Source of the DNA: a virus
IMG/VR virus record: IMGVR_UViG_3300017605_001520
Span: 1-46,613 of that record
Length of the DNA stretch: 46,613 nucleotides
Direction: 5' to 3' (one strand)
This document shows, in pieces, positions 862 to 46,613 of the stretch. A program made the position numbers and the translations under genes. Under the pieces are notes generated by a model. It was not told the DNA's origin and made no database searches. It worked only from the letters and a program-made list of their open reading frames with translations. Numbering within the stretch: position 1 is the first letter of the stretch; every line of letters starts with the position of its first letter.

Positions 862-963
862 GTCGGGCCTCCTCGTCGCGATCCTATCACGCACGAGGAG
901 AGGCTCCGCCGTGGCGGAGGAAACTCCCGAGGATGCTCGGCCCCGCACGGTAGCATCCGCCGC
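862..963. promoter_or_regulatory. Divergent control region between late (leftward) and early (rightward) operons
   Basis: 102 bases separate two head-to-head genes, so promoters for both operons are expected here or just inside the genes. Two inverted repeats are visible. GCCTCCTCGT (about 867-876) faces ACGAGGAG plus AGGC (about 893-904). CTCCGCC faces GGCGGAG at 904-919. A TAGCAT hexamer at 951-956 sits seven bases before the GTG at 964, which would give a leaderless rightward transcript, but no convincing -35 accompanies it. Leftward, TAGGAT (complement of 882-887) could be a -10. Only the gene arrangement and the repeats are certain; the promoters are inferred. Confidence 0.5.
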
Positions 964-6307: not shown

Positions 6308-6570
6308 GGCGTGGTCCTCCTGGGTGAGCCCGCGAAGCTCGGCGCGGCGTGTCACCGCCGTGTCATGTTCCACGTGCAACCCCTTGACGCCGTCCGCGGC
6401 GCCGCTAGAGTCCGCCCCCGCGAGCTCTCCATGAAGTCCAATCCCTCCTCCCTGTGAAGCGCCGCCTCTGAGCGCATGCCCGTGCGCTCCGGATGGCTCG
6501 CAACTACCGACTTCGGGGCGGCGCCCCACGGCGGGGGAGGGAACGCGGCGAGGCAGCACGATGAGGCGTC
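6308..6570. promoter_or_regulatory. Divergent intergenic region upstream of the replication operon
   Basis: 263 bases between the leftward operon (start 6307) and the replication initiator (start 6571). It contains the rightward promoter candidate at 6384-6411 and the leftward ribosome binding site. A CACGTG-centred sequence (CATGTTCCACGTG, 6364-6376) may be an operator. No convincing gene is seen here. No clear leftward promoter was identified. Confidence 0.5.
6384..6411 (+). promoter_or_regulatory. Sigma70-type promoter candidate for the replication operon
   Basis: TTGACG at 6384-6389, a 16-base spacer, then TAGAGT at 6406-6411. The -35 matches five of six consensus bases, the -10 four of six. 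Transcription would start near 6418 and leave a leader of about 150 bases before the GTG at 6571. The direction fits the downstream operon. The call rests on sequence match alone. Confidence 0.45.
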
Positions 6571-7479
6571 GTGGCTGAGAGGCGGCCGGCGAGGAAGCGT
6601 CGGTCGATGGGCGCCGCGGAGCGCTACGGACTGGCGGAACACGAGCGGTTCGCGATGGTCCCGGAGCAACTCCTGCGCGTGCTCCGCGAGAAGGGCGCCG
6701 ACCCAGGCGACCTGGCCGCGGCCGTGTGCATCCTGTTCTCGTGGCGGCCGGAGAAGGGCAACGTGCTCACCTTCTCGAGCGGCGAGTTCGCCAGGCTGAC
6801 CGGGTTCGCGAAGTCCGCCGCGCATCGCTACCTGACGCACCTCTCCGAACTCGGCCTCGTCACCCTCGCCGTCGAACCCGGCCGCGCCGCCCGCGTCGAC
6901 CTGACGCCGCTCCTCGCCGCCATGCGCGGACACACCCTCGCCGTCCTGCCGCCCGCCGAGCCGCCGCCCGCCGACGCCGACGCCGTCGCCAGGCACCTTG
7001 CAGAAATCCGCGCCCGCTTCCCGAACCAGGGCACGCTGCACATGGGGCGTCCCACCGGCGGGACGGTTCAGGCTCGCACCGACCGTCCCATCGGCGGGAC
7101 GGTTTCGGACCCAACCGTCCCACCGGCGGAACGAACCGTCCCACCGGCGGGACGGTACCGTCCCACGGGCGGAACGAACCGTCCCACGGGCGGGACGGTT
7201 GCACCGAGTACTTACGACGACGCCGCGAGCCCCCGCGCAGACGCAGCCCTCGCGCGCGCGCGCGGAGAGGCAGAGATAGCAGAAGCAGACGCGGCGAACG
7301 CGCCCGCGGCCGGCTGTAGAAGTGCCGGCCCGCGTCCGCCGCGTACCGTCAACGGCGCCGGACTACCCAGGCAGCGAACGCAGCGCGAACTCCTCGCACA
7401 CCTCCGCGAGCTCGAGAAGCTGGACGAGCCACGCGCCGCCCCGCCGACGCAGCCACGCGCGCCACGCGAAGCCCTGTAG
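6571..7479 (+). CDS. Replication initiator, lambda O-like, with origin iterons inside the gene
   Basis: 302 residues from GTG 6571 (short GAGG in front); ATG 6607 with AGGAAG upstream is a possible alternative. Residues about 15-110 look like a winged helix: VLTFSSGEFARLTGFAKSAA, then HRYLTHLSELGLV and a basic wing. This is the arrangement of phage O-type initiators and other Rep proteins, whose N-terminus binds origin repeats. The centre (about 155-210) is low-complexity with repeated PTGGT units, because this stretch of DNA consists of six palindromic iterons. The C-terminus (QRELLAHLRELEKLDEP) is helical and may contact the host helicase or its loader. In lambda, the O gene likewise contains its own origin. 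Family assignment is by architecture, not by clear sequence match. Confidence 0.72.
   Translation: MAERRPARKRRSMGAAERYGLAEHERFAMVPEQLLRVLREKGADPGDLAAAVCILFSWRPEKGNVLTFSSGEFARLTGFAKSAAHRYLTHLSELGLVTLAVEPGRAARVDLTPLLAAMRGHTLAVLPPAEPPPADADAVARHLAEIRARFPNQGTLHMGRPTGGTVQARTDRPIGGTVSDPTVPPAERTVPPAGRYRPTGGTNRPTGGTVAPSTYDDAASPRADAALARARGEAEIAEADAANAPAAGCRSAGPRPPRTVNGAGLPRQRTQRELLAHLRELEKLDEPRAAPPTQPRAPREAL
7049..7196. repeat. Six palindromic iterons: probable replication origin
   Basis: Core GTCCCACCGGCGGGAC or close variants start at 7049, 7085, 7117, 7138, 7160 and 7181. Differences are one or two bases: T for C at 7091, A for G in the third and fifth copies, and CGGG for CCGG in the last two. Flanks extend four copies (7049, 7085, 7138, 7181) to near-perfect dyads of about 22-24 bases ending in ACGGT. 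The last four cores are 21-22 bases apart, two helical turns, so bound proteins would lie on one face. All are inside the initiator gene. The arrangement matches iteron origins in general and the lambda origin within gene O in particular. Confidence 0.78.
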
Positions 7480-8053
7480 CCCTCGTAGGCCTGAACCGAA
7501 CCCGCAGGAGGAACGGGACTCCGACCCGTCCAGAGGAAACGGGACTCCGGCGCACGCACCGCGGACGGGGGGAGTCCTCACCTAGCAGCGGGGCGGCGGG
7601 GCGTCGGCGAGCCTGCCCCATGCCCGGCCGCCCCGTCCTCGTCGCCGACCGCGCGCGACGTCCTCCGCCCCGAACGTCGCATAATGGCTGTTATGGTGTG
7701 AACCGTAGGCTCGACTCCGCACCGCACTGCGCGCCGAACCACGTCGACCGCTACCTGTAGTGCGTGTCGGCTCCGGCCGCAGCGCGCGGACCACGTCGAC
7801 CAGGTGCTCGCGCACGTCGCCGCGGAGCAGCTCGACGACGTCGCCGGCGGCCCGGCCGCGACCGCGGATGAGGTGTCCGAACGCGCCCGCGCGCCGCGCA
7901 GCTCGAGGTGCGCATCGGGCGACGGAGAGCGGCTCGCGGACCTCGGCCCCGTTGCTTTCGCCGAGCATCCTCGGTAGCATCCTCGGGCCGCGAACGCACT
8001 GCACTGCGCAGTGCGGGGGACGGCAGGTCGAACGGTTCTGACGGAGGTGCATC
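7480..8053. other. 574-bp gap beside the origin without a convincing gene
   Basis: Reading frames exist on both strands but none has a good start signal or a natural-looking sequence over its full length, so a small gene cannot be excluded. Visible elements: ACGGGACTCCG twice, near 7513 and 7538; an AT-rich patch ATAATGGCTGTTAT at 7681-7694, exceptional in this GC-rich genome; ACCACGTCGACC twice (7738-7749 and 7790-7801); AGCATCCTCGG twice, near 7964 and 7977; and a perfect palindrome at 8001-8014. The radC ribosome binding site ends the gap. It may hold the unwinding element of the origin and the radC promoter. Confidence 0.5.
8001..8014. promoter_or_regulatory. Perfect 14-bp palindrome upstream of radC (operator candidate)
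   Basis: GCACTGCGCAGTGC is a perfect dyad 39 bases before the radC ATG. The AGCATCCTCGG direct repeat lies just upstream. Position and symmetry fit an operator for a dimeric repressor or activator. No regulator can be assigned to it. Confidence 0.4.
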
Positions 8054-8692
8054 ATGGCGGGACGCTACGCCGACAGGGTGAGCGAGCTGGTCGAGCGAGT
8101 CGACGCGCTCGCGGACGCCGAGCTGGTCGAGCTGGTCATCGGGGTGGACCGCGCGGACGCGGTCGAGCTGCTCGCGGGGCGCGGGTTGCGGGGCGCGCTC
8201 GCGTTGACGTGCGCCGAGGCGAGCGACGCGGGGCTCACGCCGTTGCAAGCTGCGCGGCTCCGCGCGCTTTCGTCCACGGTGTCGCGTGCGATGGTGGAAC
8301 CGCTCACGCGCGGTGCGCGGCTCGGCGGCGGCGCGGACGTGTTCCGCCACTATCACGCGTCGATGCGCGAGCTGCGGCACGAGCAGTTCCGCGTGTTGAT
8401 GCTCGACGGCAAACACCGCGTGCTCCGAGAGGAGCTGATCTCGCAAGGCACGCTGACGTCGTCGCCCATTCATCCGCGGGAGGTGTTCGCGCCCGCGATC
8501 CGTCATTCCGCGGCGGCGCTGGTCATGGTCCATAACCACCCGTCCGGCGATCCGACGCCGTCCGCCGATGACCTCGAAGTGACGCGCCGCCTCTGTGAGG
8601 TGGGGCTGCTCGTCGGCATCCGCGTCGTCGACCACGTCATCGTCGGCGACGGGCAGTACTGCTCGATGGCGGACCGCGGGCTGCTCCGATGA
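8054..8692 (+). CDS. radC: RadC family JAB/MPN-domain protein
   Basis: 212 residues from ATG 8054, with GGAGGTG upstream. Residues 1-75 resemble the helical N-terminus of RadC. Residues about 85-205 are the JAB/MPN domain: a glutamate near 126-127 (REELISQGTL), then HNHPSGDPTPSADD at 160-173. This gives the HxH (160, 162), serine 170 and aspartate 173 of a JAMM zinc site. The close VVDHVIVG is also typical of RadC. Length matches the family (about 220). Despite the name, the activity is not settled; the family is common on plasmids and prophages. It lies beside the origin and overlaps the next gene by four bases, so a role in replication, recombination or counter-defence is plausible. Confidence 0.93.
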   Translation: MAGRYADRVSELVERVDALADAELVELVIGVDRADAVELLAGRGLRGALALTCAEASDAGLTPLQAARLRALSSTVSRAMVEPLTRGARLGGGADVFRHYHASMRELRHEQFRVLMLDGKHRVLREELISQGTLTSSPIHPREVFAPAIRHSAAALVMVHNHPSGDPTPSADDLEVTRRLCEVGLLVGIRVVDHVIVGDGQYCSMADRGLLR

Positions 8693-14652: not shown

Positions 14653-15575
14653 CGGGCCCGGCAGAACAGCCGCGCCCGGCCGTCACGCGCGGCGCGCCGG
14701 CGACGCGGCGCCGCAGCGCGATGCCGCCTCCGCAGGACGGGGCCCCTGCCGCGGCGCCGGCGACGCCGTCGCGGATGACGCTCGCGAACGTGGTGCGCGC
14801 GGGAGGCAAGGAGCCGCCGCTGCGCATCATGCTCGTGGGCACCGAGGGCATCGGGAAGTCGACGTTCGGCGCGTCGTGCCCGAACCCGATCGTCATCCCG
14901 GCGGAGCGCGGCCTCGACTGGCTGCAGCCGCCGCCGGCGACGTTCCCGCCGCCGGCGACGTGGGACGACACGATCGAAGCCGTGCGATCGCTCGTGACGG
15001 GCGAGCACGCGTTCGAGACGCTCGTCATCGACACGGTCGACTTCCTCGAGGGGCTGCTCTACGCCAAGGTGAAGAAGGACACCGGCAAGGACGACATGGA
15101 ACTCGAGGCGTACCAACGCTGGCTGAAGATCGGCATCGAGTACTGGCGGCACCTGCTGCGCGGCCTCGAGGTGCTCCAGGCGCGCAAGGGCATGAACGTC
15201 GTGCTGCTCGTGCACGCGTCGCTCGGCACGAAGAAGAACCCGGGCGGCGCGGACTATCAGTACTACAAGCCTGCGCTGCAGGGCGACCTCGCGCCGAACC
15301 TCCTCAAGAGCTGGTGCGACGCCGTGCTGTTCGTCACGTACGACCTGAATTACATCGACAAGGCGAAGGACGGCGTCAACCAGGTGCGCAAGGCCGAGTC
15401 GACAGGGCAGCGCACCGTCTACACGACGCACACCGCCGCGTACGAAGCCAAGAACCGCTGGCGCCTGCCGGAGATGTTCGAGCTCCGCGACGGCTGCGGA
15501 TGGGCGGACCTGATGTACTTCAAGGACCTGGGACTCAAGGGCGGCGCCGCGCCGCAGGAAGGCAGTGCACAGTGA
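14649..15575 (+). CDS. Sak4-like RecA-fold ATPase (phage recombinase)
   Basis: 308 residues from GTG 14649, overlapping the nuclease stop (GTGA). Sak4 proteins are short RecA relatives that support single-strand annealing or exchange, usually with an SSB. The first 55 residues are a flexible proline- and alanine-rich tail. Walker A is GTEGIGKST (64-72). Walker B is LVIDTVD (125-131). A later strand, VVLLVHASLGTKKNPGG, resembles the sensor or L1 region, and SWCDAVLFVTYDL follows as in the AAA_24 family. The nuclease lies before it and an SSB-like protein after it, all coupled. Confidence 0.87.
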   Translation: MTGPAEQPRPAVTRGAPATRRRSAMPPPQDGAPAAAPATPSRMTLANVVRAGGKEPPLRIMLVGTEGIGKSTFGASCPNPIVIPAERGLDWLQPPPATFPPPATWDDTIEAVRSLVTGEHAFETLVIDTVDFLEGLLYAKVKKDTGKDDMELEAYQRWLKIGIEYWRHLLRGLEVLQARKGMNVVLLVHASLGTKKNPGGADYQYYKPALQGDLAPNLLKSWCDAVLFVTYDLNYIDKAKDGVNQVRKAESTGQRTVYTTHTAAYEAKNRWRLPEMFELRDGCGWADLMYFKDLGLKGGAAPQEGSAQ

Positions 15576-16558
15576 GCATGGACATGGGACTGACCGGAGA
15601 TGAGGCGTGGGACAACGCCGTGCCGGCAACACAGGCGGGCGAGGCGGATCAGACAGCCGGCGCGCGTTGGACGCCGGGCGGCCGCTACGACGCGTGGATC
15701 GTGCAGAGCGGGCTCGGGTGGACCAAGGATCAGAAGCCACAGGTCGCCGTGCGCTTCGACGTGCCCAACGTCGGCTACATCACGTGGTACGGCTCCTTCA
15801 GCCAGGCCGCGTACGAGTGGACGGAGAAGAAGCTGCAGGCGCTCGGGTGGGACCCCGCGGCCGCCGGCGCGTTCGAGATGCTCGCGGACCCGGGCTACCT
15901 GATCGACCTGGCCGTGAAGAAGTACGGCGAGGAGAGCTGCCACGCGTCCATCACCGTGAAGCAGGAGGAGTACAACGGCAAGTGGAGCTGGAAGGTCGCG
16001 TTCGTCGACCCGCCAGGCGGCGGCGAGCTGCTCGTCGAGAAGATGGACCCGAACCAGGCCAAGAGCTTCGAGCAGGCCATGCGGTCCGCCATCCGCGGCG
16101 GCCGCGTCAATTCGCAGACGCGCAGCGCGGCCGCGGCGCCGCCCGCGCGCGCGCCCGGCGCGCCGCCGCCGCGCGGGAGGGCTCTCACGCCGCATCCGCA
16201 GGCGCAGGGTCCGAGCCGCTCCGTGCAGCCGCCGGTTGCCCCGCCGCCGGCGGCGAGGACTCAGGAGGAGGAGGACGCCGCGCAGCGTGAGCGCGAGCGG
16301 CAGGACTTTCTCCGCGGCCCCGGAGGCGGCGCGCCGCCCCCGGCCGCGCCCGCAGCCGCACCTCCGCAGGCGCCGCGGGCGCCGGTGCGTGGTGCTCCCG
16401 GACCTCAGCGGAGTCACGCCGGAAATCCTCGAGGTGCTGCGCCTCGACCCCAAGATGCGGGCGGACCTGGATCGGCTCGCCGAGCTCCTCCGCCGGCAGC
16501 TCCGGAGCAGACCTACCCTCCCTACGACCCCAACAACCCCGACGACATCCCGTACTAG
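15572..16558 (+). CDS. Single-stranded DNA-binding-like protein with acidic tip
   Basis: 328 residues from GTG 15572 (AGGAAGG nine bases upstream); ATG 15578 is in frame and cannot be excluded. Residues about 30-165 look like a beta-rich domain (GGRYDAWIVQSG, VAVRFDVPNVGYITWY), resembling DUF669-type proteins found beside Sak4 ATPases. Residues 180-310 are a long, disordered, proline- and alanine-rich linker. The protein ends PNNPDDIPY, very close to the DDDIPF tip with which bacterial SSBs recruit repair and replication proteins. This makes a non-canonical SSB the best call. It is the last rightward gene, 18 bases before the terminator. Confidence 0.8.
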   Translation: MSMDMGLTGDEAWDNAVPATQAGEADQTAGARWTPGGRYDAWIVQSGLGWTKDQKPQVAVRFDVPNVGYITWYGSFSQAAYEWTEKKLQALGWDPAAAGAFEMLADPGYLIDLAVKKYGEESCHASITVKQEEYNGKWSWKVAFVDPPGGGELLVEKMDPNQAKSFEQAMRSAIRGGRVNSQTRSAAAAPPARAPGAPPPRGRALTPHPQAQGPSRSVQPPVAPPPAARTQEEEDAAQRERERQDFLRGPGGGAPPPAAPAAAPPQAPRAPVRGAPGPQRSHAGNPRGAAPRPQDAGGPGSARRAPPPAAPEQTYPPYDPNNPDDIPY

Positions 16559-17216: not shown

Positions 17217-17606
17217 TTACCGGCGGCGCACGAGCACGTCGATGCCAGTCTCGGCGCGGCCCAGGCGGGCGTCCATGCCCGCGAGCTTGTCGCGCAGCGC
17301 GTCGTTCATCTGCTCGCCGCGCGCGAGCGTCACGCGGATTTCAGAGAACGCCAGGCGCAGCTCGTTCACCGTCTGGACGGCGTCGGTCGCCTTGTCGGCC
17401 GCCGCCTCCGCCTTCTTCGCCGCCTCGGCGGCGACGGCCGTCACGTTGACGACGGCGGCGCGGTTCGAGTCCATCCGGTCCCACATGAAGCCGAGCGCCG
17501 CGAGGATCGTCGCCGACGCGCCGGCGGTGAGCCCCGTGTTGCTCTTGATCGCACGGTAGACCTGCTTCCTCGTCGTCTCGGGCTTGCCGTCTGCGGGTTC
17601 GGTCAT
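17217..17606 (-). CDS. Membrane coiled-coil protein, i-spanin or holin candidate
   Basis: 129 residues from ATG 17604-17606, overlapping the stop of the giant gene (ATGA). Residues 1-23 are polar and basic. Residues about 24-43 (GLTAGASATILAALGFMWDR) form a single moderately hydrophobic segment. Residues 65-125 form a coiled coil (ELRLAFSEIRVTLARGEQM, DKLAGMDARLGRAETGIDVL). An N-in anchor with a long periplasmic coil is the layout of i-spanins, and the next gene encodes a lipoprotein. A holin with a coiled tail is the alternative. Confidence 0.68.
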   Translation of the reverse strand: MTEPADGKPETTRKQVYRAIKSNTGLTAGASATILAALGFMWDRMDSNRAAVVNVTAVAAEAAKKAEAAADKATDAVQTVNELRLAFSEIRVTLARGEQMNDALRDKLAGMDARLGRAETGIDVLVRRR

Positions 17607-20600
17607 CGCGCTGCGCCTCCCTTGGATGTCGCCAGGATACGCTCGACCAGCTCGCGCGCCTCGCGCGCCTGCTCGAGGAACTGTTCGCCGAGCCGGTCCT
17701 TCTCCTCGCCGCTCGAGCGGAAGTACTGGCGCCGCGTCGACTGCATGGCGCGCGCGATCTCGGACACGGCCTCGCTCGCCTCGGAAGGGACGTGCGGCAC
17801 GCCGCCGGCGCGCGCGCGTTCGGGGGCGCGGCGCACGAGCTGCTCCTCCGCCTTCATCTTGTCGAGCTCGCTGCGGAGCTGCCAGAAGCGGTCGTAGTCC
17901 TTGCTCTCGATGCCGCTCACCGTGAAGCGCGACACGATCGGCACGCGCCCGCTCGCCTCGCGCGGCCGCACTCCGACCGCGGCCTCGCCCGTGTCGACCA
18001 CCTCGCGGTACGCGCCGCCCGTGTAGTAGTTGAAGAGGTAATCGAACGCGAGCGGCGAGAGCCCGAGCTTCGGCGCCACTTCGCGCGCGAGCCGGCTCGT
18101 GCCCTCTCCGTACTGCTGCTCGAGCGGCGCCTCCTCGAGGGACGGCGGAACGACGGGGCGGCCGCTGAACGACTGCTTGTTGCGGAAGACGTCGATCGCT
18201 CCCTGCGCGGCCGTCGGGACGAGCGGCGGCACCGTCGTCTGATACATCTGCGTGCCCCACTCGCTGAAAGCCTGCGGGTTCTTGCCGTTCATGTAGTCCA
18301 GCACCGCGAGCGGCAGGCCGGCGTAGATCGAACCGACGGCGTGCGGCATGGGGATGCGGATCATGTCGTTGGGGCCGCTGCCGAAGGGGACGAGCCAGTA
18401 GCCGTAGCGCATGTAGCCCGGGCGGCCGTACACGCGCTCGTCGTCCTTCGTGCTCGCCCACAAGGCGACCGTCGGCGCGGTGATGTAGACGACGCCGCGC
18501 GCGTGCGTCCGCGGGTTGCCCATCGCGCGCGCGACCTTGTCGATCGCCTGGATGGACGGGTTGAAGAACGCCGTCGCGACGTTCATCTTGGCGCCGAACT
18601 CGCCCATGCGCTTGAAGTCGACGGTGACGTTCTCGGCCGCGAGCGCGGCCTTGCGGATCAGCGCCTCGGACGCGGGCCCCTTCTTCGGCGTCCACCCCTC
18701 GTTCTCGAGGACGGTGAGGAACTCGGCCATGCGCGTGCCGCCCTCGACGCGCGACGCGAACTCGCGGATGCCGTGGCCCCAGTTGGTCGGGTCGATGACG
18801 CGCGCGGCCTTCTCCGCGGCGGTGAGCGGCGTCTTCTTCGACATCTGCTTCACGACGTCGGCGGTGAAGTCGCGGTCGTAGCCCCAGTAGCCGCCCGACT
18901 CCGCGCCGCTCGCCTTATACATGCGCGACTCGACCGACGACGGCATCGCGAGCGAGTGCGCGAACCCGCGGACGAGGTTCTTCGCCGCGGTGTAGACGGG
19001 CACCTTCCGGCGCACGCCGGTGAGCAGGTACATCGGGATGTCGCGGATCGGGTTCGCGACCTGGAAGCCGACGCTGTAGACGACGGCGCCGAGCCGCTGC
19101 GCCTTGCTGAAGAGTCCGAGGGTCCGGAGCACCGCGCCCGTCTCGCGCGAGTCCAGGCGCGACAGCGCCTCGCGCATCTCCGGGCTGACCTGGTACCACT
19201 TCCGCTTGCCGTTCTTCCAGAGCGTGACGATGTTGTCGTTGCCCTTGGGCTGCGGACGGTTGACGAACACGGTGAGGGCCTCGGAGCGTTCGGCCTTCGT
19301 GAGCTTGCCGCCCTTCAGCCCCTCGAGGAAGTCGCGGATCTGCCACGCCTGGAACGTCGCGCGCATCTTCTCCTTCGGCACTTCCTCAATCCACTTGCCG
19401 AGTCCCTGCGCGGAGTCGCCGGCGCGGGCGATCGCGTTACTGAGCTGCAGCCGGTCGCCGAGCGAAATCAGCCGCCCGACGTCGGCGACGTCGGCCTCGA
19501 GCACGTCACGGATCTCGCGCGTGCTGCCGGTTCGCCGGCGAACGGGCTCCGGCGTGCCCTCGATCGCCGAGCCCTTGCGGCCGCCCTCCTCGACGAGCGC
19601 GCGGATGTCGCCCTTCACCTCGGGGAACATGCGCATGAAGTGCGCGTAGTTCTCGTTGTGGAAGTCCTCGCGCAGCCGCTCGTACACGCGCCGCGAGACG
19701 CCGCCGCGGCGCACCATCGTGTCGTACATGAGTCGCTCGCGCCACTCGACACGCTTCGTCGCCGCGTCGGCCACGACGCCGTTGTCGAAGTTCCGCAGCA
19801 CGTACTCGACGTCTTCCTTGCGCAGGCCCGGGTCGAGTCCCGACTTGAAGTAGTCGAGAGCGCGGCGAGCGACGACGACGGCGCGGAACTCGCGCATCTT
19901 CCCGGCGTCGACCACGGGCCGAACGATCTCGCGCAGTCCGGGCCCGCCGCCCATGTCCGTTGCGAGGTCGCCCTTGTCGAGGAACTCCTTGGCCCTCGAG
20001 GACGCGGAGCGCGTGTACTGGCGCGCCATCTCGATGATCTCGGGATGACCGGATGCCTCGGCGAAGCGCTTGAGCGTGTCGAGGTCGTCGAGCCACCAGC
20101 GGTTCAGCTTCGCGAGCTGGTCGCCGGGATTGCGCCGCCACTCGCTGACGGCCGCGGCGATGCGCGAGACGAGCGACGGCTTGCCGGTGTGCTGGAACGC
20201 CTCGAAGCGGCCCTCGGGCCCCTGGTCCTCGTAGCGCTGCGCCATCTCGGCCGCGCGCTCGATGCCCTTCTTCACCTCGGGCGCCTGGTCGAGCACCGTC
20301 TCGAGCCACGCGCGCGTCGCCGGCAGCGCGTTCTTCGTCGCGCCCTTGTGCTCGACGCGCTCGCGCAAGAGCTCCGCGAACCCCTCGGCCTCGTAACTCG
20401 TCGCCGGACGCCGGCGGCCGTACAGCAGCTTGCCGAGGCGGTAGAGGTCCTTCAGCACGGGCTTGGGGACGTTCGCATTCTTCACGTCGCCGCCGAGGAG
20501 CTGCGCCTCGAGCGCGTGGCCGGCCTCGTGCGCCGAGGTCGACGTGTCGTTCGCGTGCTTGAGCCGGACCACTTCCTCGCGCAGCCGGTAGAAGCCGAGG

Positions 20601-23600
20601 ACGCTGCGCGTCTTCGCGCCCAGGCGGCCGACGCGGATCGGGCGGTCGATCGTGTCCTCGAGCTTCTGCACGATCTCGCTCTCGCGCACGATCTCGCCCG
20701 GCGTGCCGGGCTTCACCTGGCGACGACCTGGTGACGGCGCAGCGGGCGGCGCCGCGGCCTCCTCCTCGGCGAAGAGACTCGCGGGGCGTCCGGCGGCCGT
20801 CGCGGGGCCTTCGCCGGCGGCCTCGGTCTTCTTTATGTCGTACGCGATGCGGGCCTGGTCGCGCAGGTAGTCACGCTGCACGTCGATGCCCTGCTTCTCC
20901 ATTTCGAGCATCTTCTCGTTCGCGACGTCGAACTCGACCGGGCGCCACTTCCCCTCGTCGAGCACGAGCGCATCGTACGTGCGCGGGCCCGTCGGCTTCA
21001 TGTCGACGCCGGTCGCGCGGCGGTACTTCGACGCCGACACCTCCACCTCGAGGGGATGCTCCGCGTCGGTGAAGCGCGGCGACACGCCGCCCTTCTTCGA
21101 GTACTTCCGCACCATCTTGTTGAACTCGTCGACGCCGACGCGCTCGATGTTCTTCTTCGCCATCTCCCACGCGGCCGCGGCGGTCTTGCCGTGGCCGACG
21201 CCGGCGCCGCTGCGCGCCTCGCTGACGGTCCAGCCGTCCGACTCCTTCGTGATGAACAGGTTGTGCTCGCGCGCCCACTTCTGCGGACCGGGCGGCGCCT
21301 TGCCGGGCACCTCGCGGAACTTGCCCTCGTTCGTCGCGACGAAGTAGCGGTCGGGCTTCGTCGGCTCGGTCGGCAGCTCCTTCTTCGGCTTGGGCGGCTT
21401 CTCACCCTTCGGCTTCGGCGGCTTCGTCGCCTTGCGTTCGACGTCGCGAACGTGCGCCTCGATCGCCTGCGCGGCGAGCTCCTGGATCGTGCGCTTCGTG
21501 TCGTACGACGACGGCCTGCTGCCGCTCTTGCGGATCTCGGCGGCGACGTCCTCGACACGCTCGCCGGCGGCGACGCGCCGGAGTCCCTGCGCGACGAGCC
21601 CGTGCTCCAGCGCAAGGTTCTCGTGACGCTCGCGCAGGTCCGGCTCTTTCTCGGCCTGGCGCTTCATGCGCTCCAGTTCCTCGAACGCCTGCTTGGCGCG
21701 CCTCTCTAGCCGCTTCGCCTGCGGGTGCGGCTCGCGCTCGCCGGCGACCGGCTCACGTTTCGGCGGTTCCGTCTCACGAACGGGCGGCTTCGGCTCAGGA
21801 GCGGGCGGTTTCGTCCCGCGGACCGGCGGCGAGGCTTTGCGCGGCTTCTTCGCTCCGCCGAAGTCTGCGTCGGCGGCTGACTTCACGGCGTCGATGCCGC
21901 GCAGTTTCATCGCCTGCTGCGCGTCGGTCTTGTGCTTGAAGTCGGCGAACGTGCCGTCCTCGAGATACACGCGCCAACCGAGACGACCCTCCGCACCGTG
22001 GAAGTCCGAAAGCGTGCGCTTGCCTGGTTCGGAGTCCTCGGGCTTGACTTCCTTCGGCATCGGTCCGACAGCCTTCGCGTGGCGCGCGATCGCCACCTTC
22101 ATCGCGTGGTCGAAGTAGATCGGCGCCTGCTCGCCGGCGCGCCACGTGACCTTGCCGTCGCTCGCGCGCGTGTGCGTGTCGGGGAGCTTCTCGAGGTCCG
22201 CACGCACGGCGGCAGGGTCCTCGCCGGCGGCGACGCGGCGCATCGCGTTCGCGAGCTCCGTCTTGAAGCGGCTGTCGATCGTCTCCTCGCCCTTCGCGTC
22301 CGAACGCGCCTCGATCGCCTGCGTGTCGAACGCGGCCGCGCGCTTGAGGAGCTCCTGCGCGGCGGGGTGCTGCTCGACGGACGGCTCCTCGGCCGGCGGC
22401 TCCTCCGGCGGCGGCGCCGCGCGCTCCTCGAGCGTCTTGCGCAGCGTCTCGTCGGTGGCGGGCTTGCGCTCGACCTTCAGCCCTTCCGGCTGCGCCGCCT
22501 CTGCGGCCGCAGCTTCCTCGGGCGTTCGCGCGAGGACTGTGCGGACTTCGCGGCCGCTGCTATCACGCACCTGTACCACTTCGCGCGCTGCACCTTCGGG
22601 CGGCTTTTCGTCCGTTCCATTGATGAGCCTCCACGGCGTGCGCCCCTTCTTGGGGCGGTCCAGGTACGACAGGAACCCGCGCTTGACCTGCGCGTTGTCG
22701 AAGAGGAACTCGGCGCCGTCGCTCGCCTTGTACGGCCGGATATCGCGGCCCGTCTCGGCCGAGGCCCTCTGCGCCAGGCTCTCGATCGTGAAGTCGGCGA
22801 GCTGCTGCTCGCCGGCGGTCGGAACGGTGCCCTCGGACGGCGCGGGGCGGCCCCACGCCTTGCCCATCTTGAGCACCTCCTCGGGGAGCTGCGCCTCCGC
22901 CTCGATCGGCCGACGGACCGGGGCGGCCTCCGGCGCTGCCGTACGCGTCGGCGGCGCCGCGGGCGCGGCCGAGGGCTCCACCTGGATCGGCGGCTCCTTG
23001 AACTCGACCCTGGGCCCTCCTGGTGCGCCTGTCTCGACGTTGACCGACGGGGCCACGTCTCGCGGCTTGGGCGGCTGGATGACCCTCGCAGGCGCCTCCA
23101 CGGGCGCCGGGGCGGGGATCCTCGTCGGGAGCGGCGCCACCTCGGCCGCGGGGATCGGGGCGGGAGCCTCTGCAAGTGGGACCATCGCGGCCCGCGGCCG
23201 CGCGGCCAGGCTCTCGACCAGGCGCGCGCTCCTGCCCTGCAGGTTCGCAGCGCCGCGCTCGAGCGGACCGAACGCGACCATCGGCAGGATGCCCTGCCCG
23301 AAGCCCGCTCCGGAGCGTCCTGCGCGCGCGATCTCGTCTTCACTGCCGCCGGCGGCGATCGACGCCAGCTCGCCGGCGCCGCGGCCGATGTCGCCGGACC
23401 ACTCAATCGGCTTGTCGATGACGGCGTTGCTGAAGTCGGCGACCGGCGTCGAAGCGTCCATGCCCTCGCGCGCGGCCTCCTCCTTCGCCTGCGCGAGAGA
23501 TGCGCGGCTCGCCGTCAGCCCGGCCATGAGCGGATGGAAGCCGATGAGCGCGCCGACGCCGCCCACGAACCGCTCGCCGGCGGTGTCGCCGTGCACGAAC

Positions 23601-24196
23601 TGACTCGCGCCGTGCTCGATCGCCTCGAGGGGCGACTCGACCAGGCGGTGCGCGACGCGAAGGCCGGGCCCCTGCGCCTCCCACCGCTGCGCCGCCTCGT
23701 TCGCCTTCCTCGCCGCTTCGGCCTCCACGTAGCGGCGTCCGTACTCCTCGCGCGTCGGCCGCGGCGGCGGCATCTCGCGCGGCACCTGGCGCGGGCCGAC
23801 GAAGTTCGGCGGGTACTGCGGCGGCGTCTCCATGTACTGCCGCCCCGCGTTGCGTTCGCCCCACGCGTTGAGGTCCGCCATGTGCATCGCGTTGAGGTCC
23901 TCTTCCGTGGCGATCGCCGCGGCCCTCTCCGGCGTGAGCTCCGTGACGTACGGCGCATCGGAGGACGGGCCGAAACCCATGCCGACCGTGCCCGCGCGCG
24001 CAGCCGCGGCTGCGGGGTTCGATAGCGTGCGAAGTCCGTCGTCGGACAGGCGCGTGACGTCGCCGGCGGAAAGCGCCGTCAGGTCCGCGTCGGACAGAGC
24101 GCGCAGCGCGTCGGACGTGTCCGCGCCGGGGACGTAGAGCATCTCCTTGCGCGCGTGCTTCTCGACATCGACGCCGGGGAAGAGGTCGTCGCTCAC
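17603..24196 (-). CDS. Giant polyvalent internal virion protein with HEAGH zincin and LPD38-like domain
   Basis: 2197 residues from GTG 24194-24196, overlapping the previous stop. It takes up 14% of the genome. Near the N-terminus there are short repeats (LSDADLTALSAGDVTRLSD). Residues about 330-480 and 770-850 are long proline-, alanine- and lysine-rich linkers. HEAGH at 1223-1227, followed about 40 residues later by an EGFAE segment, looks like a zinc metallopeptidase (zincin). The last 600 residues (for example FFNPSIQAIDKVARAM, GYWLVPFGSGPNDMIRIPMP) resemble the large polyvalent-protein domain LPD38. Such proteins are carried in virions and injected. Two other ejection-protein candidates are encoded just upstream. 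The domain names are recalled from family patterns and have not been searched. Confidence 0.85.
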   Translation of the reverse strand: MSDDLFPGVDVEKHARKEMLYVPGADTSDALRALSDADLTALSAGDVTRLSDDGLRTLSNPAAAAARAGTVGMGFGPSSDAPYVTELTPERAAAIATEEDLNAMHMADLNAWGERNAGRQYMETPPQYPPNFVGPRQVPREMPPPRPTREEYGRRYVEAEAARKANEAAQRWEAQGPGLRVAHRLVESPLEAIEHGASQFVHGDTAGERFVGGVGALIGFHPLMAGLTASRASLAQAKEEAAREGMDASTPVADFSNAVIDKPIEWSGDIGRGAGELASIAAGGSEDEIARAGRSGAGFGQGILPMVAFGPLERGAANLQGRSARLVESLAARPRAAMVPLAEAPAPIPAAEVAPLPTRIPAPAPVEAPARVIQPPKPRDVAPSVNVETGAPGGPRVEFKEPPIQVEPSAAPAAPPTRTAAPEAAPVRRPIEAEAQLPEEVLKMGKAWGRPAPSEGTVPTAGEQQLADFTIESLAQRASAETGRDIRPYKASDGAEFLFDNAQVKRGFLSYLDRPKKGRTPWRLINGTDEKPPEGAAREVVQVRDSSGREVRTVLARTPEEAAAAEAAQPEGLKVERKPATDETLRKTLEERAAPPPEEPPAEEPSVEQHPAAQELLKRAAAFDTQAIEARSDAKGEETIDSRFKTELANAMRRVAAGEDPAAVRADLEKLPDTHTRASDGKVTWRAGEQAPIYFDHAMKVAIARHAKAVGPMPKEVKPEDSEPGKRTLSDFHGAEGRLGWRVYLEDGTFADFKHKTDAQQAMKLRGIDAVKSAADADFGGAKKPRKASPPVRGTKPPAPEPKPPVRETEPPKREPVAGEREPHPQAKRLERRAKQAFEELERMKRQAEKEPDLRERHENLALEHGLVAQGLRRVAAGERVEDVAAEIRKSGSRPSSYDTKRTIQELAAQAIEAHVRDVERKATKPPKPKGEKPPKPKKELPTEPTKPDRYFVATNEGKFREVPGKAPPGPQKWAREHNLFITKESDGWTVSEARSGAGVGHGKTAAAAWEMAKKNIERVGVDEFNKMVRKYSKKGGVSPRFTDAEHPLEVEVSASKYRRATGVDMKPTGPRTYDALVLDEGKWRPVEFDVANEKMLEMEKQGIDVQRDYLRDQARIAYDIKKTEAAGEGPATAAGRPASLFAEEEAAAPPAAPSPGRRQVKPGTPGEIVRESEIVQKLEDTIDRPIRVGRLGAKTRSVLGFYRLREEVVRLKHANDTSTSAHEAGHALEAQLLGGDVKNANVPKPVLKDLYRLGKLLYGRRRPATSYEAEGFAELLRERVEHKGATKNALPATRAWLETVLDQAPEVKKGIERAAEMAQRYEDQGPEGRFEAFQHTGKPSLVSRIAAAVSEWRRNPGDQLAKLNRWWLDDLDTLKRFAEASGHPEIIEMARQYTRSASSRAKEFLDKGDLATDMGGGPGLREIVRPVVDAGKMREFRAVVVARRALDYFKSGLDPGLRKEDVEYVLRNFDNGVVADAATKRVEWRERLMYDTMVRRGGVSRRVYERLREDFHNENYAHFMRMFPEVKGDIRALVEEGGRKGSAIEGTPEPVRRRTGSTREIRDVLEADVADVGRLISLGDRLQLSNAIARAGDSAQGLGKWIEEVPKEKMRATFQAWQIRDFLEGLKGGKLTKAERSEALTVFVNRPQPKGNDNIVTLWKNGKRKWYQVSPEMREALSRLDSRETGAVLRTLGLFSKAQRLGAVVYSVGFQVANPIRDIPMYLLTGVRRKVPVYTAAKNLVRGFAHSLAMPSSVESRMYKASGAESGGYWGYDRDFTADVVKQMSKKTPLTAAEKAARVIDPTNWGHGIREFASRVEGGTRMAEFLTVLENEGWTPKKGPASEALIRKAALAAENVTVDFKRMGEFGAKMNVATAFFNPSIQAIDKVARAMGNPRTHARGVVYITAPTVALWASTKDDERVYGRPGYMRYGYWLVPFGSGPNDMIRIPMPHAVGSIYAGLPLAVLDYMNGKNPQAFSEWGTQMYQTTVPPLVPTAAQGAIDVFRNKQSFSGRPVVPPSLEEAPLEQQYGEGTSRLAREVAPKLGLSPLAFDYLFNYYTGGAYREVVDTGEAAVGVRPREASGRVPIVSRFTVSGIESKDYDRFWQLRSELDKMKAEEQLVRRAPERARAGGVPHVPSEASEAVSEIARAMQSTRRQYFRSSGEEKDRLGEQFLEQAREARELVERILATSKGGAAR

Positions 24197-31309: not shown

Positions 31310-32361
31310 TTCTTCACCTTGAGCGGCTGCACGTACACGCGGCCGCCGACGATGATGAGCAGCTCGCGCGAGCCGTCTGTCTTGTCGTACTGCCCGACGT
31401 GCTGGCCCATGAAGCACGGGTTCGTGAGCTGCACCTGGTACGCGGGATTGCCGACGACCGTCGCGTGGTTCGCGCTGTACGAGTCGTCGTTACCGTCGCC
31501 GTTGAAATCGTAGTGGAAGGCCGCCTCGAGCGGGTTCGGCCAGGACTGGCGCGCGTAGCGCCTGCAGGTGTCGATGAGCGACCGCCCGTTGTCGCGCAGC
31601 TCCGCTGGATCGACGCCGGGCCACGGCACCGCAGTGATGGCGTCGATGACGCCGCCGGCGAACGCCGTGTCCGCCTCGAGGTCCGCCGGGATCGCACCGT
31701 CGGAGGTCTGTCCGAAGGTGAGTCGCGCGTCCTCGCTGCGCAGCACGACGGCGTCATCGCCGATGCCGTCGACCGTGTCCTCGAGGTCGTCGTTCACGTA
31801 CAGGTAGAGACTCCCGCCGTCGTCGGAGTACGGGTTGAAGAAGAGGAAGCCGCGGATGGTCGAGTTGGCGACCGTCGCCGCCTCGCACGTGAACTTCTGC
31901 GCGTCGCTGTCGCGCGAGAAGTGCGCAAGGAACGTCCCGTCGGCCTTCAGCTCGAGGCCGTAGCTCGAGCGGTGCGTCCCGTCGGCCACCTCGCGCATGA
32001 AGATGGCGACGCCGTCGTGGTCCGCCGGGTTGCCCGCAGGGCGCACTGCCTTGAAGTGGAAGAAGATCGACCACGGGCCCGCGGGGAACTCCTGCGCCGC
32101 GTGCCACGGCGCGTGCGCGTAGTCCCCGCCGTTCGCGATGACGACGGCGCCGGCGGTGTCGTGCGGGTTGTCGAGCCGCTGCACGACCTGCAGGCCGCCG
32201 CGGCGGCGGATGTCGCGCTTGTCCGTGCGCACGCCGCTCGCGGCGATCGTCGAGCCGCGGTTCACCATGCCGGGCTCGCTCCAGAGGTCGAGCCCCTTCG
32301 CGCCGATCGGCGAGATGCGCGGCTTGTCCCCCGGCCGGTCGCGCTTCCTCTCGGGAGGCAT
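31306..32361 (-). CDS. Concanavalin/LamG-like structural protein
   Basis: 351 residues from ATG 32359-32361, overlapping the adaptor stop by one base. The first 50 residues are basic. Residues about 95-260 resemble a LamG or concanavalin-like jelly roll: GPWSIFFHFKAVRP, DGVAIFMREV, SSYGLELKADGTFLAHFS, SLYLYVNDDL. The C-terminal part has a YDFNGDGNDDSYSAN sequence with a calcium-binding look and ends in a beta strand. This is probably a virion protein that binds glycans or decorates the tail. Function is inferred from fold-like patterns only. Confidence 0.72.
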   Translation of the reverse strand: MPPERKRDRPGDKPRISPIGAKGLDLWSEPGMVNRGSTIAASGVRTDKRDIRRRGGLQVVQRLDNPHDTAGAVVIANGGDYAHAPWHAAQEFPAGPWSIFFHFKAVRPAGNPADHDGVAIFMREVADGTHRSSYGLELKADGTFLAHFSRDSDAQKFTCEAATVANSTIRGFLFFNPYSDDGGSLYLYVNDDLEDTVDGIGDDAVVLRSEDARLTFGQTSDGAIPADLEADTAFAGGVIDAITAVPWPGVDPAELRDNGRSLIDTCRRYARQSWPNPLEAAFHYDFNGDGNDDSYSANHATVVGNPAYQVQLTNPCFMGQHVGQYDKTDGSRELLIIVGGRVYVQPLKVKK

Positions 32362-43811: not shown

Positions 43812-46613
43812 CTAGCGGACTCGCGGCTTCCTGTACCGGCCGGGGATGCCGGTGCCCTGGTGGAAGCGGCCGCGGCCCTTGCCGGGCATCGTCGTCCTGC
43901 CGCCCTCGCCGGGAGTGACGGGGATCGGGAGCTCGTTCACGCCGGCGTGCGCGCCGATCGCGGTCGTCGATCGCCGGCGCCGGTCGTCGACCGCGTAGGG
44001 ACACCGCGCGGTGCGCGGCACGGCGTTCTCAGTCGGGCCGCCGACCTTCGGGCGCCAGTCGTCCGTGGCCGTGTCCACGGCGATGTCGGCGGGCACCAGG
44101 TCGCCCACGCCGTGCGCGTCGTCCTGGTCGACCGCGTCGCTGATCGTGCCGACGCCGTCGATGACGACATGGTCGATCGGGTCGCGCAGCTCACCCGGCG
44201 CGGTGCTCCAGTTGAGCGTGATGTAGGACGTGTCCTTCAGGAGCGAGTTGATGATCTCGGCGTGCGTCACGATCTGCTTCCTGTCGAGGAAGTCGCCGGC
44301 GCCAGTCTCGAACCTCGTCACGTTCCCGACCGGCGCGGAGCAGTGGTAGAAGCCGATGCCCATGCACGCGCGGAGCACGCTGATGAAGAGGCCGTTCGCG
44401 CCGAGCGGCAGCCCGATGATGTCGAGGAAGTAGTAGCCCGTCGCCGGGATGAACTCGGCCTCTGCTCCGTTGCGCATCTGGAACCACGTCGCCTGGCAGT
44501 TGAAGAACTCGCCGTAGGCGTTCACCAGGTTGCGGTGCCCCTGCTCCGCGAAGGACTGGAACATGTCCGAGTGCAGCGGGTTGCCGGCCGCTGGCGGTGG
44601 GCCCGAGCCGTCGTCGGTGCCGTCCGCGTAGATGTCCTGGCCGCGCGCGCCGAGGCCGGAGCACATGGGCGAGCCGAACGCCTGCGCAATACGGCGCTGA
44701 ATGAGGTTGCAGTACGTCGTGAGCGTGTAGAGGCCGTCCGCGCTGTCCTCACAGACGACGTAGTTGTCGCGCTCGTTCGGCCAGCGGTTCCCGTCGACGT
44801 CGGCGTCCGCCTCGAGGCCGCTGCTCTTTTCGCACGCGCGCCCGAACACGTACACGCCGCCGGTCCACGTCGCCGGCGTCACGAACGTGTGCCGCAGCGT
44901 CTTCGGCTCGTTGCCCGGCTCCTGCGCGGTCCGGCCGAAGCCGGTCAGCCGCGTGTTGCCGCCGAGGACGATCATCGGCGTCTGCGCGTTGTTCGCGTTG
45001 AGCGTGATGCGGTAGACCCACACGTCGTAGAGCTCGAGCTTCAGCCCCGGGCTGTACGCGCCGCCCGACGTGACGAACTTCACGTCGGTGGGGAGCAGGC
45101 CGTCCTGCGGCTTGATCGTGAAGATGCCCTCGTCGAAGTCGCAGAAGCCGTGCGGCCCGATGAAGTCGTACTCGCCGGCGGCGCCGAGCGCGACGCCCAG
45201 GCCCGCGTCGCCGTTGTCCGCCTGGCACTGATCCATGCAGCCGCCGGGAGTCGCCTTCGGCTGCGCGAGCGTCCCCGGGTCTAGGTCGTCGCCGAGCGGA
45301 TCGAAGTAGTACGTGCGCGCCGCGCGGATCGCGCCGCCCGGATCGGGCACGACGAACACCTCGCCGAGGTCCGTCGAGTTGCCCACGTTGCTGTACGCGA
45401 TCGCGTGCACGGAGACTGGGACGCCGGCGTCCCAGTCGTTCGGATCGAAGGGCACGTTGTAGTCCGGGTGCCCGTGGTACGCGTTCGGCGTCATGCTGGT
45501 GACGGCGATCGGCGCGCCGCCGCCGATCTCGAACTCGACGCGGTTCACGCCGCGCACCATCGCCGCGAGCACTCCGAGCTGCGTCGGCGCTTCGATTCCG
45601 CCGTACCGGCGGAAGTTGTAGATGGCCGCGGGGTAGAGCTTCTGCGCGCGGAACTTCGTCGCCCACAGACTGAAGCCCGAGTCGTTCAGCGCCTTCACGA
45701 CGATGTCGTACGTGCCCTCGGCCAGCGTCTCGCCGTCCACGACCAGGCGCCCAAACTCGTTGATCGTGAGTCCGGCCGGCGTGTCGCTCGTGACGTCGAA
45801 GGTCCACTCGGCGACGGCGCCGCCCTGGTTCTGGATCTGGAAGAGGTCGGCGCAGTTGGGGCCGACCTGCACCTGCATGCGGCCGCGGTTCGCGGCGATG
45901 ACCGGGACCTGGACGACCACCTCGATGTCGATAGGGCCCGTGTCCGATCCGGCGGCGTTCGTCGCCCTGCCGACGCACGCGTAGCTGCCGATCGAGGAGC
46001 CGTCCGTCGGCAGCGTGCCGGTGAGCTTCCCCGTCGCGGGGTTCATCGCGACGCCGGGCGGCGGGTCGTCGCCCAGGTCCGTGTCGAACTCCCAGTCGGT
46101 CGACGCGCCGCCGGCGTTGTCCGCGTCCTCGTCGAGGGTGTCGCCCTCCTGGAACGTGAACGGCGAGCCGGGCCAACTCGGATCGGGCGGACTGTCGGAC
46201 GCGGGCTCGTCGGCGCCGCACTCCGGCGTTGCGTCGCGAGGGTCGCCCTCGATGTCCGTCGCGAGGTCGACGTCGAAGCCCGTGGGATCCTCGGTGCTCG
46301 GGAAGGTGCCGGACGGCTCCGTCGTCGCCAGGTCGAACGTCCCCGCCACGACGCTGACGAAGTGCGCCGCGGCGTTCTGATAGTTCGTCGTGCCCGGGGC
46401 CGTCGCATCGCTCGAGACGTTGTTGTCGCCGCCGGCGCCGGCGAAGTCGCCGAAGCCGCCGCCCGCCATGTCGCAGTTGTGGCAGTCGATCGCTCCGCCG
46501 TTCGCCCAGAACCCGAAGCCGCCGCCGTGGTAGCCGCTGACGTGCCAGAACGTGCCCGTCTGCCCGCTCCACAGCACGCACGAGCCGCCCGAGTACATCG
46601 CCGTGTTCTCGAC
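43812..46613 (-). CDS. Tailspike, C-terminal part: beta-helix, Ig-like domains, second beta-helix
   Basis: This is the rest of the 1073-residue protein that starts at 561. In complete numbering, the first parallel beta-helix covers about 1-280 and ends with EGDPR (262-266) and GADE (273-276), the usual end signature of such helices. Three beta-sandwich units follow: Ig-like at about 282-375 and 376-465, and another at 468-563. YYFDPLGDDLDPGTLAQPKA (near 575) opens the second helix, with HSDMFQSF at 821-828. The tail after about 1015 is basic and flexible (GRGRFHQGTGIPGRYRKP). Most likely it is a receptor-binding spike or capsule depolymerase. No catalytic residue could be assigned. Confidence 0.87.
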   Translation of the reverse strand, partial: VENTAMYSGGSCVLWSGQTGTFWHVSGYHGGGFGFWANGGAIDCHNCDMAGGGFGDFAGAGGDNNVSSDATAPGTTNYQNAAAHFVSVVAGTFDLATTEPSGTFPSTEDPTGFDVDLATDIEGDPRDATPECGADEPASDSPPDPSWPGSPFTFQEGDTLDEDADNAGGASTDWEFDTDLGDDPPPGVAMNPATGKLTGTLPTDGSSIGSYACVGRATNAAGSDTGPIDIEVVVQVPVIAANRGRMQVQVGPNCADLFQIQNQGGAVAEWTFDVTSDTPAGLTINEFGRLVVDGETLAEGTYDIVVKALNDSGFSLWATKFRAQKLYPAAIYNFRRYGGIEAPTQLGVLAAMVRGVNRVEFEIGGGAPIAVTSMTPNAYHGHPDYNVPFDPNDWDAGVPVSVHAIAYSNVGNSTDLGEVFVVPDPGGAIRAARTYYFDPLGDDLDPGTLAQPKATPGGCMDQCQADNGDAGLGVALGAAGEYDFIGPHGFCDFDEGIFTIKPQDGLLPTDVKFVTSGGAYSPGLKLELYDVWVYRITLNANNAQTPMIVLGGNTRLTGFGRTAQEPGNEPKTLRHTFVTPATWTGGVYVFGRACEKSSGLEADADVDGNRWPNERDNYVVCEDSADGLYTLTTYCNLIQRRIAQAFGSPMCSGLGARGQDIYADGTDDGSGPPPAAGNPLHSDMFQSFAEQGHRNLVNAYGEFFNCQATWFQMRNGAEAEFIPATGYYFLDIIGLPLGANGLFISVLRACMGIGFYHCSAPVGNVTRFETGAGDFLDRKQIVTHAEIINSLLKDTSYITLNWSTAPGELRDPIDHVVIDGVGTISDAVDQDDAHGVGDLVPADIAVDTATDDWRPKVGGPTENAVPRTARCPYAVDDRRRRSTTAIGAHAGVNELPIPVTPGEGGRTTMPGKGRGRFHQGTGIPGRYRKPRVR
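46473..46613. repeat. Direct repeat, right copy
   Basis: Identical to bases 1-141. Removing one copy closes the genome and joins the two parts of the tailspike gene in frame (codon 124-126 corresponds to 46596-46598). Confidence 0.97.

Follow-up and report, generated by a model that had tools for sequence, protein, structure and literature searches.

We analyzed a window of 46,613 nt that comprises the whole of IMG/VR virus record IMGVR_UViG_3300017605_001520. Because the first and last 141 bases (1 to 141 and 46473 to 46613) are identical direct repeats, the record is probably a complete phage genome of about 46.5 kb, with 70% GC. It encodes structural and packaging proteins (large terminase, P22-like portal, and major head protein), proteins of DNA metabolism (DNA methyltransferase, PD-(D/E)XK exonuclease, and Sak4-like annealing protein), a RadC protein, and an HNH nuclease. 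Among the genes scanned, which included only part of the small ORFs, we recognized no polymerase, helicase, primase, helicase loader, or further initiator. Searches for related phages using the exonuclease, major head protein, and terminase yielded none apart from one terminase at 24% identity, and this phage lineage has almost no known relatives. Three other features of the genome were recorded. The minus strand at 17603 to 24196 encodes a 2197-aa protein, probably a giant virion protein, whose C-terminal part matches phrog_9854 (unknown function). An ORF at 14876 to 16558 (+) adjoins the exonuclease and Sak4 genes and ends in DPNNPDDIPY, which by eye resembles the acidic tail of single-strand DNA-binding proteins; this ORF has no PHROG or Pfam match. 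A tRNA-Arg (acg) was called at 31912 to 31996 (-), either antisense to the late genes or in their midst.

The locus of interest is a plus-strand ORF that opens at a GTG codon at 6571 and ends at 7479. A candidate ribosome site, GAGGAA, lies at 6591 to 6596, and translation likely starts at the ATG at 6607. From the ORF and its translation, we annotate 6607 to 7479 (+) as a putative replication initiator gene of 290 aa; the next recognized gene is RadC. AlphaFold2 run on the single sequence predicted a winged helix at approximately residues 20 to 105, with the element order H-H-E-H-H-E-E-H and a pLDDT mostly between 74 and 87 across the block. When the full-length protein was modeled with a 27-row alignment, the winged helix was kept, residues 138 to 209 were unstructured, and two C-terminal helices followed. 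Using AlphaFold2, Pfam, and Foldseek, we place the predicted winged-helix DNA-binding domain at about residues 18 to 105 (6658 to 6921, +); the predicted disordered linker, encoded in part by the iterons described below, corresponds to 7018 to 7233 (+).

The only Pfam match of the protein was a short helix-turn-helix (HTH_IclR, 5.8e-5). Foldseek matched winged helices in general: the best matches among solved structures were MarR/ArsR regulators, and those in the viral library included proteins named as replisome organizer, replication initiator, and lambda GpO N-terminal. A fold match at this level supports DNA binding and points to no specific family. An initial annotation of this DNA had described the product as a winged-helix protein unrelated in sequence to lambda O, and our results agree on both points: the domain is predicted at the N terminus by AlphaFold2, with a helix-turn-helix match in Pfam, and no similarity to Phage_rep_O (Pfam) or to the O-like PHROGs was detected. 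The protein also showed no sequence match to HTH_36, phrog_270, or any other initiator family. Protein searches of viral contigs and phages turned up no homologues, and those of plasmids nothing usable; a single bacterial protein match (L006) was rejected as a response-regulator helix-turn-helix with generic similarity only. Searches of phages and plasmids with the DNA of the iteron region gave chance-level matches only, and the single match L007 was likewise judged to be chance.

Six 18-bp palindromic sites with the consensus CGTCCCACCGGCGGGACG form an array that spans 7048 to 7197. On the plus strand, the sites are iteron 1 at 7048 to 7065 (CGTCCCACCGGCGGGACG), iteron 2 at 7084 to 7101 (CGTCCCATCGGCGGGACG), iteron 3 at 7116 to 7133 (CGTCCCACCGGCGGAACG), iteron 4 at 7137 to 7154 (identical to iteron 1), iteron 5 at 7159 to 7176 (CGTCCCACGGGCGGAACG), and iteron 6 at 7180 to 7197 (CGTCCCACGGGCGGGACG). 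Start-to-start spacings are 36, 32, 21, 22, and 21 bp. The whole array lies inside the ORF at 6571 to 7479, 440 to 590 bp into the gene, and the measurements thus confirm both the six near-identical cores within coding sequence and the 21- to 22-bp spacing of the last four that had been reported initially. Counting 20-mer matches with up to three mismatches on both strands, we obtained 10, compared to 0.06 expected by chance; no shuffle used as a control reached this number. Each copy has 6 to 8 of 9 possible palindromic pairs. The left half, CGTCCCA, is invariant in all six iterons, and variation is confined to the center and right arm, the latter reading GGAAC in copies 3 and 5 and GGGAC in the others. 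Copies 3 and 4 together and copies 5 and 6 together make up near-identical 43-bp units.

The iterons are read in two frames. Copies 1, 2, 5, and 6 are translated as RPTGGT or RPIGGT, whereas a different frame is used in copies 3 (TVPPAER) and 4 (TVPPAGR). The initial annotation had proposed that the repeat forces a PTGGT-rich linker on the protein, which is correct for copies 1, 2, 5, and 6 and incorrect for the two in the TVPPA frame. We also generated 5000 synonymous recodings of the protein with the phage's own codon usage. The six iterons have 5 site mismatches, compared to a mean of 24.5 in the recoded sequences (standard deviation 2.5, minimum 16), and 43 palindromic pairs, compared to a recoded mean of 28.6 (maximum 37). 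Given that two frames are used and that the sites are more alike than synonymous codons require, DNA rather than protein is what the iterons conserve, and protein-level selection fails to explain their likeness. The second frame and the recodings thus strengthen the earlier proposal that the DNA repeat, not the protein, is selected. Recent duplication could account for part of the likeness in the pair of 43-bp units; it cannot explain copies 1 to 3, because their spacers are uneven and mutually unlike.

We scanned 2.9 million viral contigs in IMG/VR for two copies of GTCCCA-N5-GGRAC within 30 bases and obtained 72 contigs. Eight loci (L016, L019, L022, L055, L062, L064, L065, and L068) were set aside by hand before ORFs were counted. 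In 48 of the 72 contigs, the sites lie within an ORF, about 90 to 150 codons from its start. At 70% identity these 48 cases collapse into 27 clusters, and by BLAST they separate into seven mutually dissimilar groups; one BLAST-linked group holds 40 of the 48, so the counts are not independent. We took 26 representatives, omitting L052, in which the repeats lie near the end of a long ORF. Phrog_270 (replication initiation protein) was matched by 25 of the 26, and most match several replication-initiation or O-like PHROGs; 23 match HTH_36 and one matches Phage_rep_O. Sites occur in more than one frame in 17 of the 26, and the GGAAC variant of the right arm recurs among these pattern relatives. 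A control scan with a permuted half-site returned seven contigs, of which at most one appeared initiator-like by eye. The window falls into the same layout class, with at least two GTCCC-N6-GG(G/A)AC cores in an ORF behind a predicted N-terminal winged helix.

Within the set L013 to L082, the core GTCCC-N6-GG(G/A)AC is common to initiators that have no BLAST similarity to each other, namely those of HTH_36 type, those of Phage_rep_O type, L020/L043, L035, L040, and L079, and it may represent an old or convergent recognition code. Many of the HTH_36-type genes have another short repeat just past the last iteron, as in L018, L023, L048, L036, and L044 (GGAACCTTCAAG or GAATCTAAAAG); it is perhaps part of an unwinding element, and we saw none in the window. 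Among other loci discarded, L061 is an intergenic repeat array, and L009/L010 carry an unrelated in-frame coding repeat, PTGGTP. Phage contigs L008 (1 to 960) and L011 (1 to 260) have a region that resembles an origin. L008 has an HTH_36 gene (97 to 753) followed by four palindromes of the TAGTTCA...TGAACT type, the last three 23 to 24 bp apart, and then by a DnaA-box-like TGTGGATAA and an A+T-rich stretch. Two TGTCCCACCAGTGGGACA sites lie 3' of that stretch and right upstream of a RusA-like gene, so the GTCCCAC half-site also occurs outside initiator genes. In L087, a contig from the control scan, a CTCGCA...GCGAG palindrome near 892 to 927 (-) lies behind an apparent helix-turn-helix domain, possibly marking another initiator with its own iteron code.

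The layout of palindromic iterons within a gene is already known, and the window is a divergent example of this design. In lambda, four iterons are annotated within gene O; they are spaced 20 to 24 bp apart and fall in three frames. The number in Stx phages is six: four are strong binding sites, and replication also requires the remaining two (PMC7466680). Like lambda O/ori-lambda and Stx phages P27 and 933W, the window pairs a putative initiator of winged-helix type with palindromic iterons placed midway along its gene, spaced by about two helical turns and read in mixed frames. Unlike lambda, the window has the shorter core TCCC-N6-GGGA rather than TCCC-N9-GGGA, and its protein has neither Phage_rep_O similarity nor a recognized P-like neighbor; no P/DnaC-like helicase loader was matched in the genes scanned, and a loader of an unknown family is possible. 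HTH_36 proteins have been reported as initiators of some plasmids (PMC3832669) and occur in Stx phage replication units (PMC8951638). The HTH_36-type/phrog_270 initiators in our set (for example, L013, L017, and L044) resemble the window in having GTCCC-N6-GG(G/A)AC palindromes in mixed frames, about 90 to 150 codons in and behind a winged helix; there the palindromes encode SPKNGT/SQKRD. The window protein differs from this group in having no family match, and a profile comparison was insignificant. Closest in style is L040 (IMGVR_UViG_3300036832_000481), a GC-rich phage (70% GC) that has an initiator-like protein and four GTCCCACCAGCGGGAC sites at spacings of 34, 21, and 32 bp that encode SHQRD/SVPPAGR in two frames. 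Its similarity to the window protein is insignificant outside the repeat-encoded part, and, unlike the window, L040 has a short A+T-rich stretch after the last site. Our literature search found no paper describing the GTCCC...GGGAC class as such.

The sequence flanking the iterons also departs from lambda. The 40 bases that follow the last lambda iteron are 78% AT; beside the iterons of the window there is no A+T-rich tract, with 26 to 27% AT past the last iteron versus 30% for the genome. Over the 80 bases past the last site, AT exceeds that of the contig by >0.02 in 22 of the 26 representatives (mean excess 0.09 for all 26), whereas in the window it is 0.03 below that of the genome. The AT scan placed the nearest A+T-rich stretch (50% AT) at 7677 to 7716, 480 bp past the last iteron, which we speculate is a promoter or a remote unwinding site. 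No DnaA box with up to one mismatch occurs anywhere in the genome, and sigma-70 promoter and terminator scans of 6400 to 8100 returned nothing. The GC skew curve dips locally near 8 kb but reaches its global minimum at 43.8 kb, and here it largely tracks gene direction. The proposal of a lambda-like origin therefore holds for the layout and the winged helix and fails for the A+T-rich tract and the helicase loader. Because no such tract adjoins the iterons and the protein matches no recognized initiator family by sequence, we do not call the locus a lambda-type origin in the strict sense. The idea that this is an independently evolved or very divergent replicator fares similarly. Divergence is clear, as no initiator family was matched; independent origin is doubtful, because the same core, including GGAAC, is present in HTH_36-type initiators and its GGGAC form in an O-type one.

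We conclude, with a probability of roughly 0.85, that the ORF at 6607 to 7479 is the phage's replication initiator gene, that the origin lies within it, and that it works in the manner of lambda O. This reading rests on the iterons and the evidence that they are constrained as DNA, on the structure predictions (winged helix, disordered linker, and C-terminal helices), and on the agreement of layout and core with annotated phage initiators. We also count in its favor that exonuclease and Sak4 annealing genes are present while no other initiator was recognized. From these data we infer binding, strand opening, helicase recruitment, and status as the sole origin, as follows. Dimers of the N-terminal winged helix would bind the six palindromic iterons; the four copies at regular intervals of two helical turns would form the center of an O-some-like complex, helped by the outer pair. 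The complex would then destabilize the DNA on its downstream side, and the C-terminal part of the protein would recruit the host helicase.

It is improbable that the protein is instead a transcription regulator whose own gene contains the palindromes as operators for autoregulation. HTH_IclR as the best Pfam match and MarR/ArsR proteins as the best solved-structure matches fit such a role, as does the similar palindrome pair that L008/L011 carry upstream of the RusA-like gene, outside any initiator. However, the helix-turn-helix match is a generic fold match, and six tandem sites this far into a gene and encoding a linker are typical of phage initiators and odd for operators. More improbable is that the palindromes are hairpins in mRNA or single-stranded DNA that act in regulation, pausing, or packaging. 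The predicted RNA folding energy is -100.9 kcal/mol, compared to -78.3 kcal/mol in shuffles (z = -5.4), but any palindrome array yields stronger folding. In addition, copies 3 and 5 vary in the right arm with no compensating change in the left, which is invariant, and there is no Rfam match. We give the least credence to a low-complexity PTGGT repeat of the protein, spread by slippage, in which the DNA has no role. The near-identity of the 43-bp units and the existence of the PTGGTP coding repeat in L009/L010 are in keeping with slippage; the two reading frames contradict it, and the uneven spacers and a DNA conservation far beyond synonymous codon need also argue against it.

Returning to the initiator reading, we consider one extension of it possible, though on balance doubtful: that the window protein represents a family of initiators new by sequence, one that uses the GTCCC...GGGAC iteron code of HTH_36-type and O-type initiators and melts a GC-rich duplex that has no A+T-rich tract alongside. 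If so, the recognition core would be very old or would have re-evolved repeatedly across phage winged-helix initiators. The missing tract raises the question of how GC-rich phage origins open. A candidate origin and its initiator can now be tested in a lineage of phages whose known relatives are very few. Our results suggest that in-gene palindromic GTCCC...GGGAC iterons flag initiators whose protein similarity is no longer visible, so that a brief DNA motif can be used to find origins in uncharacterized phages.
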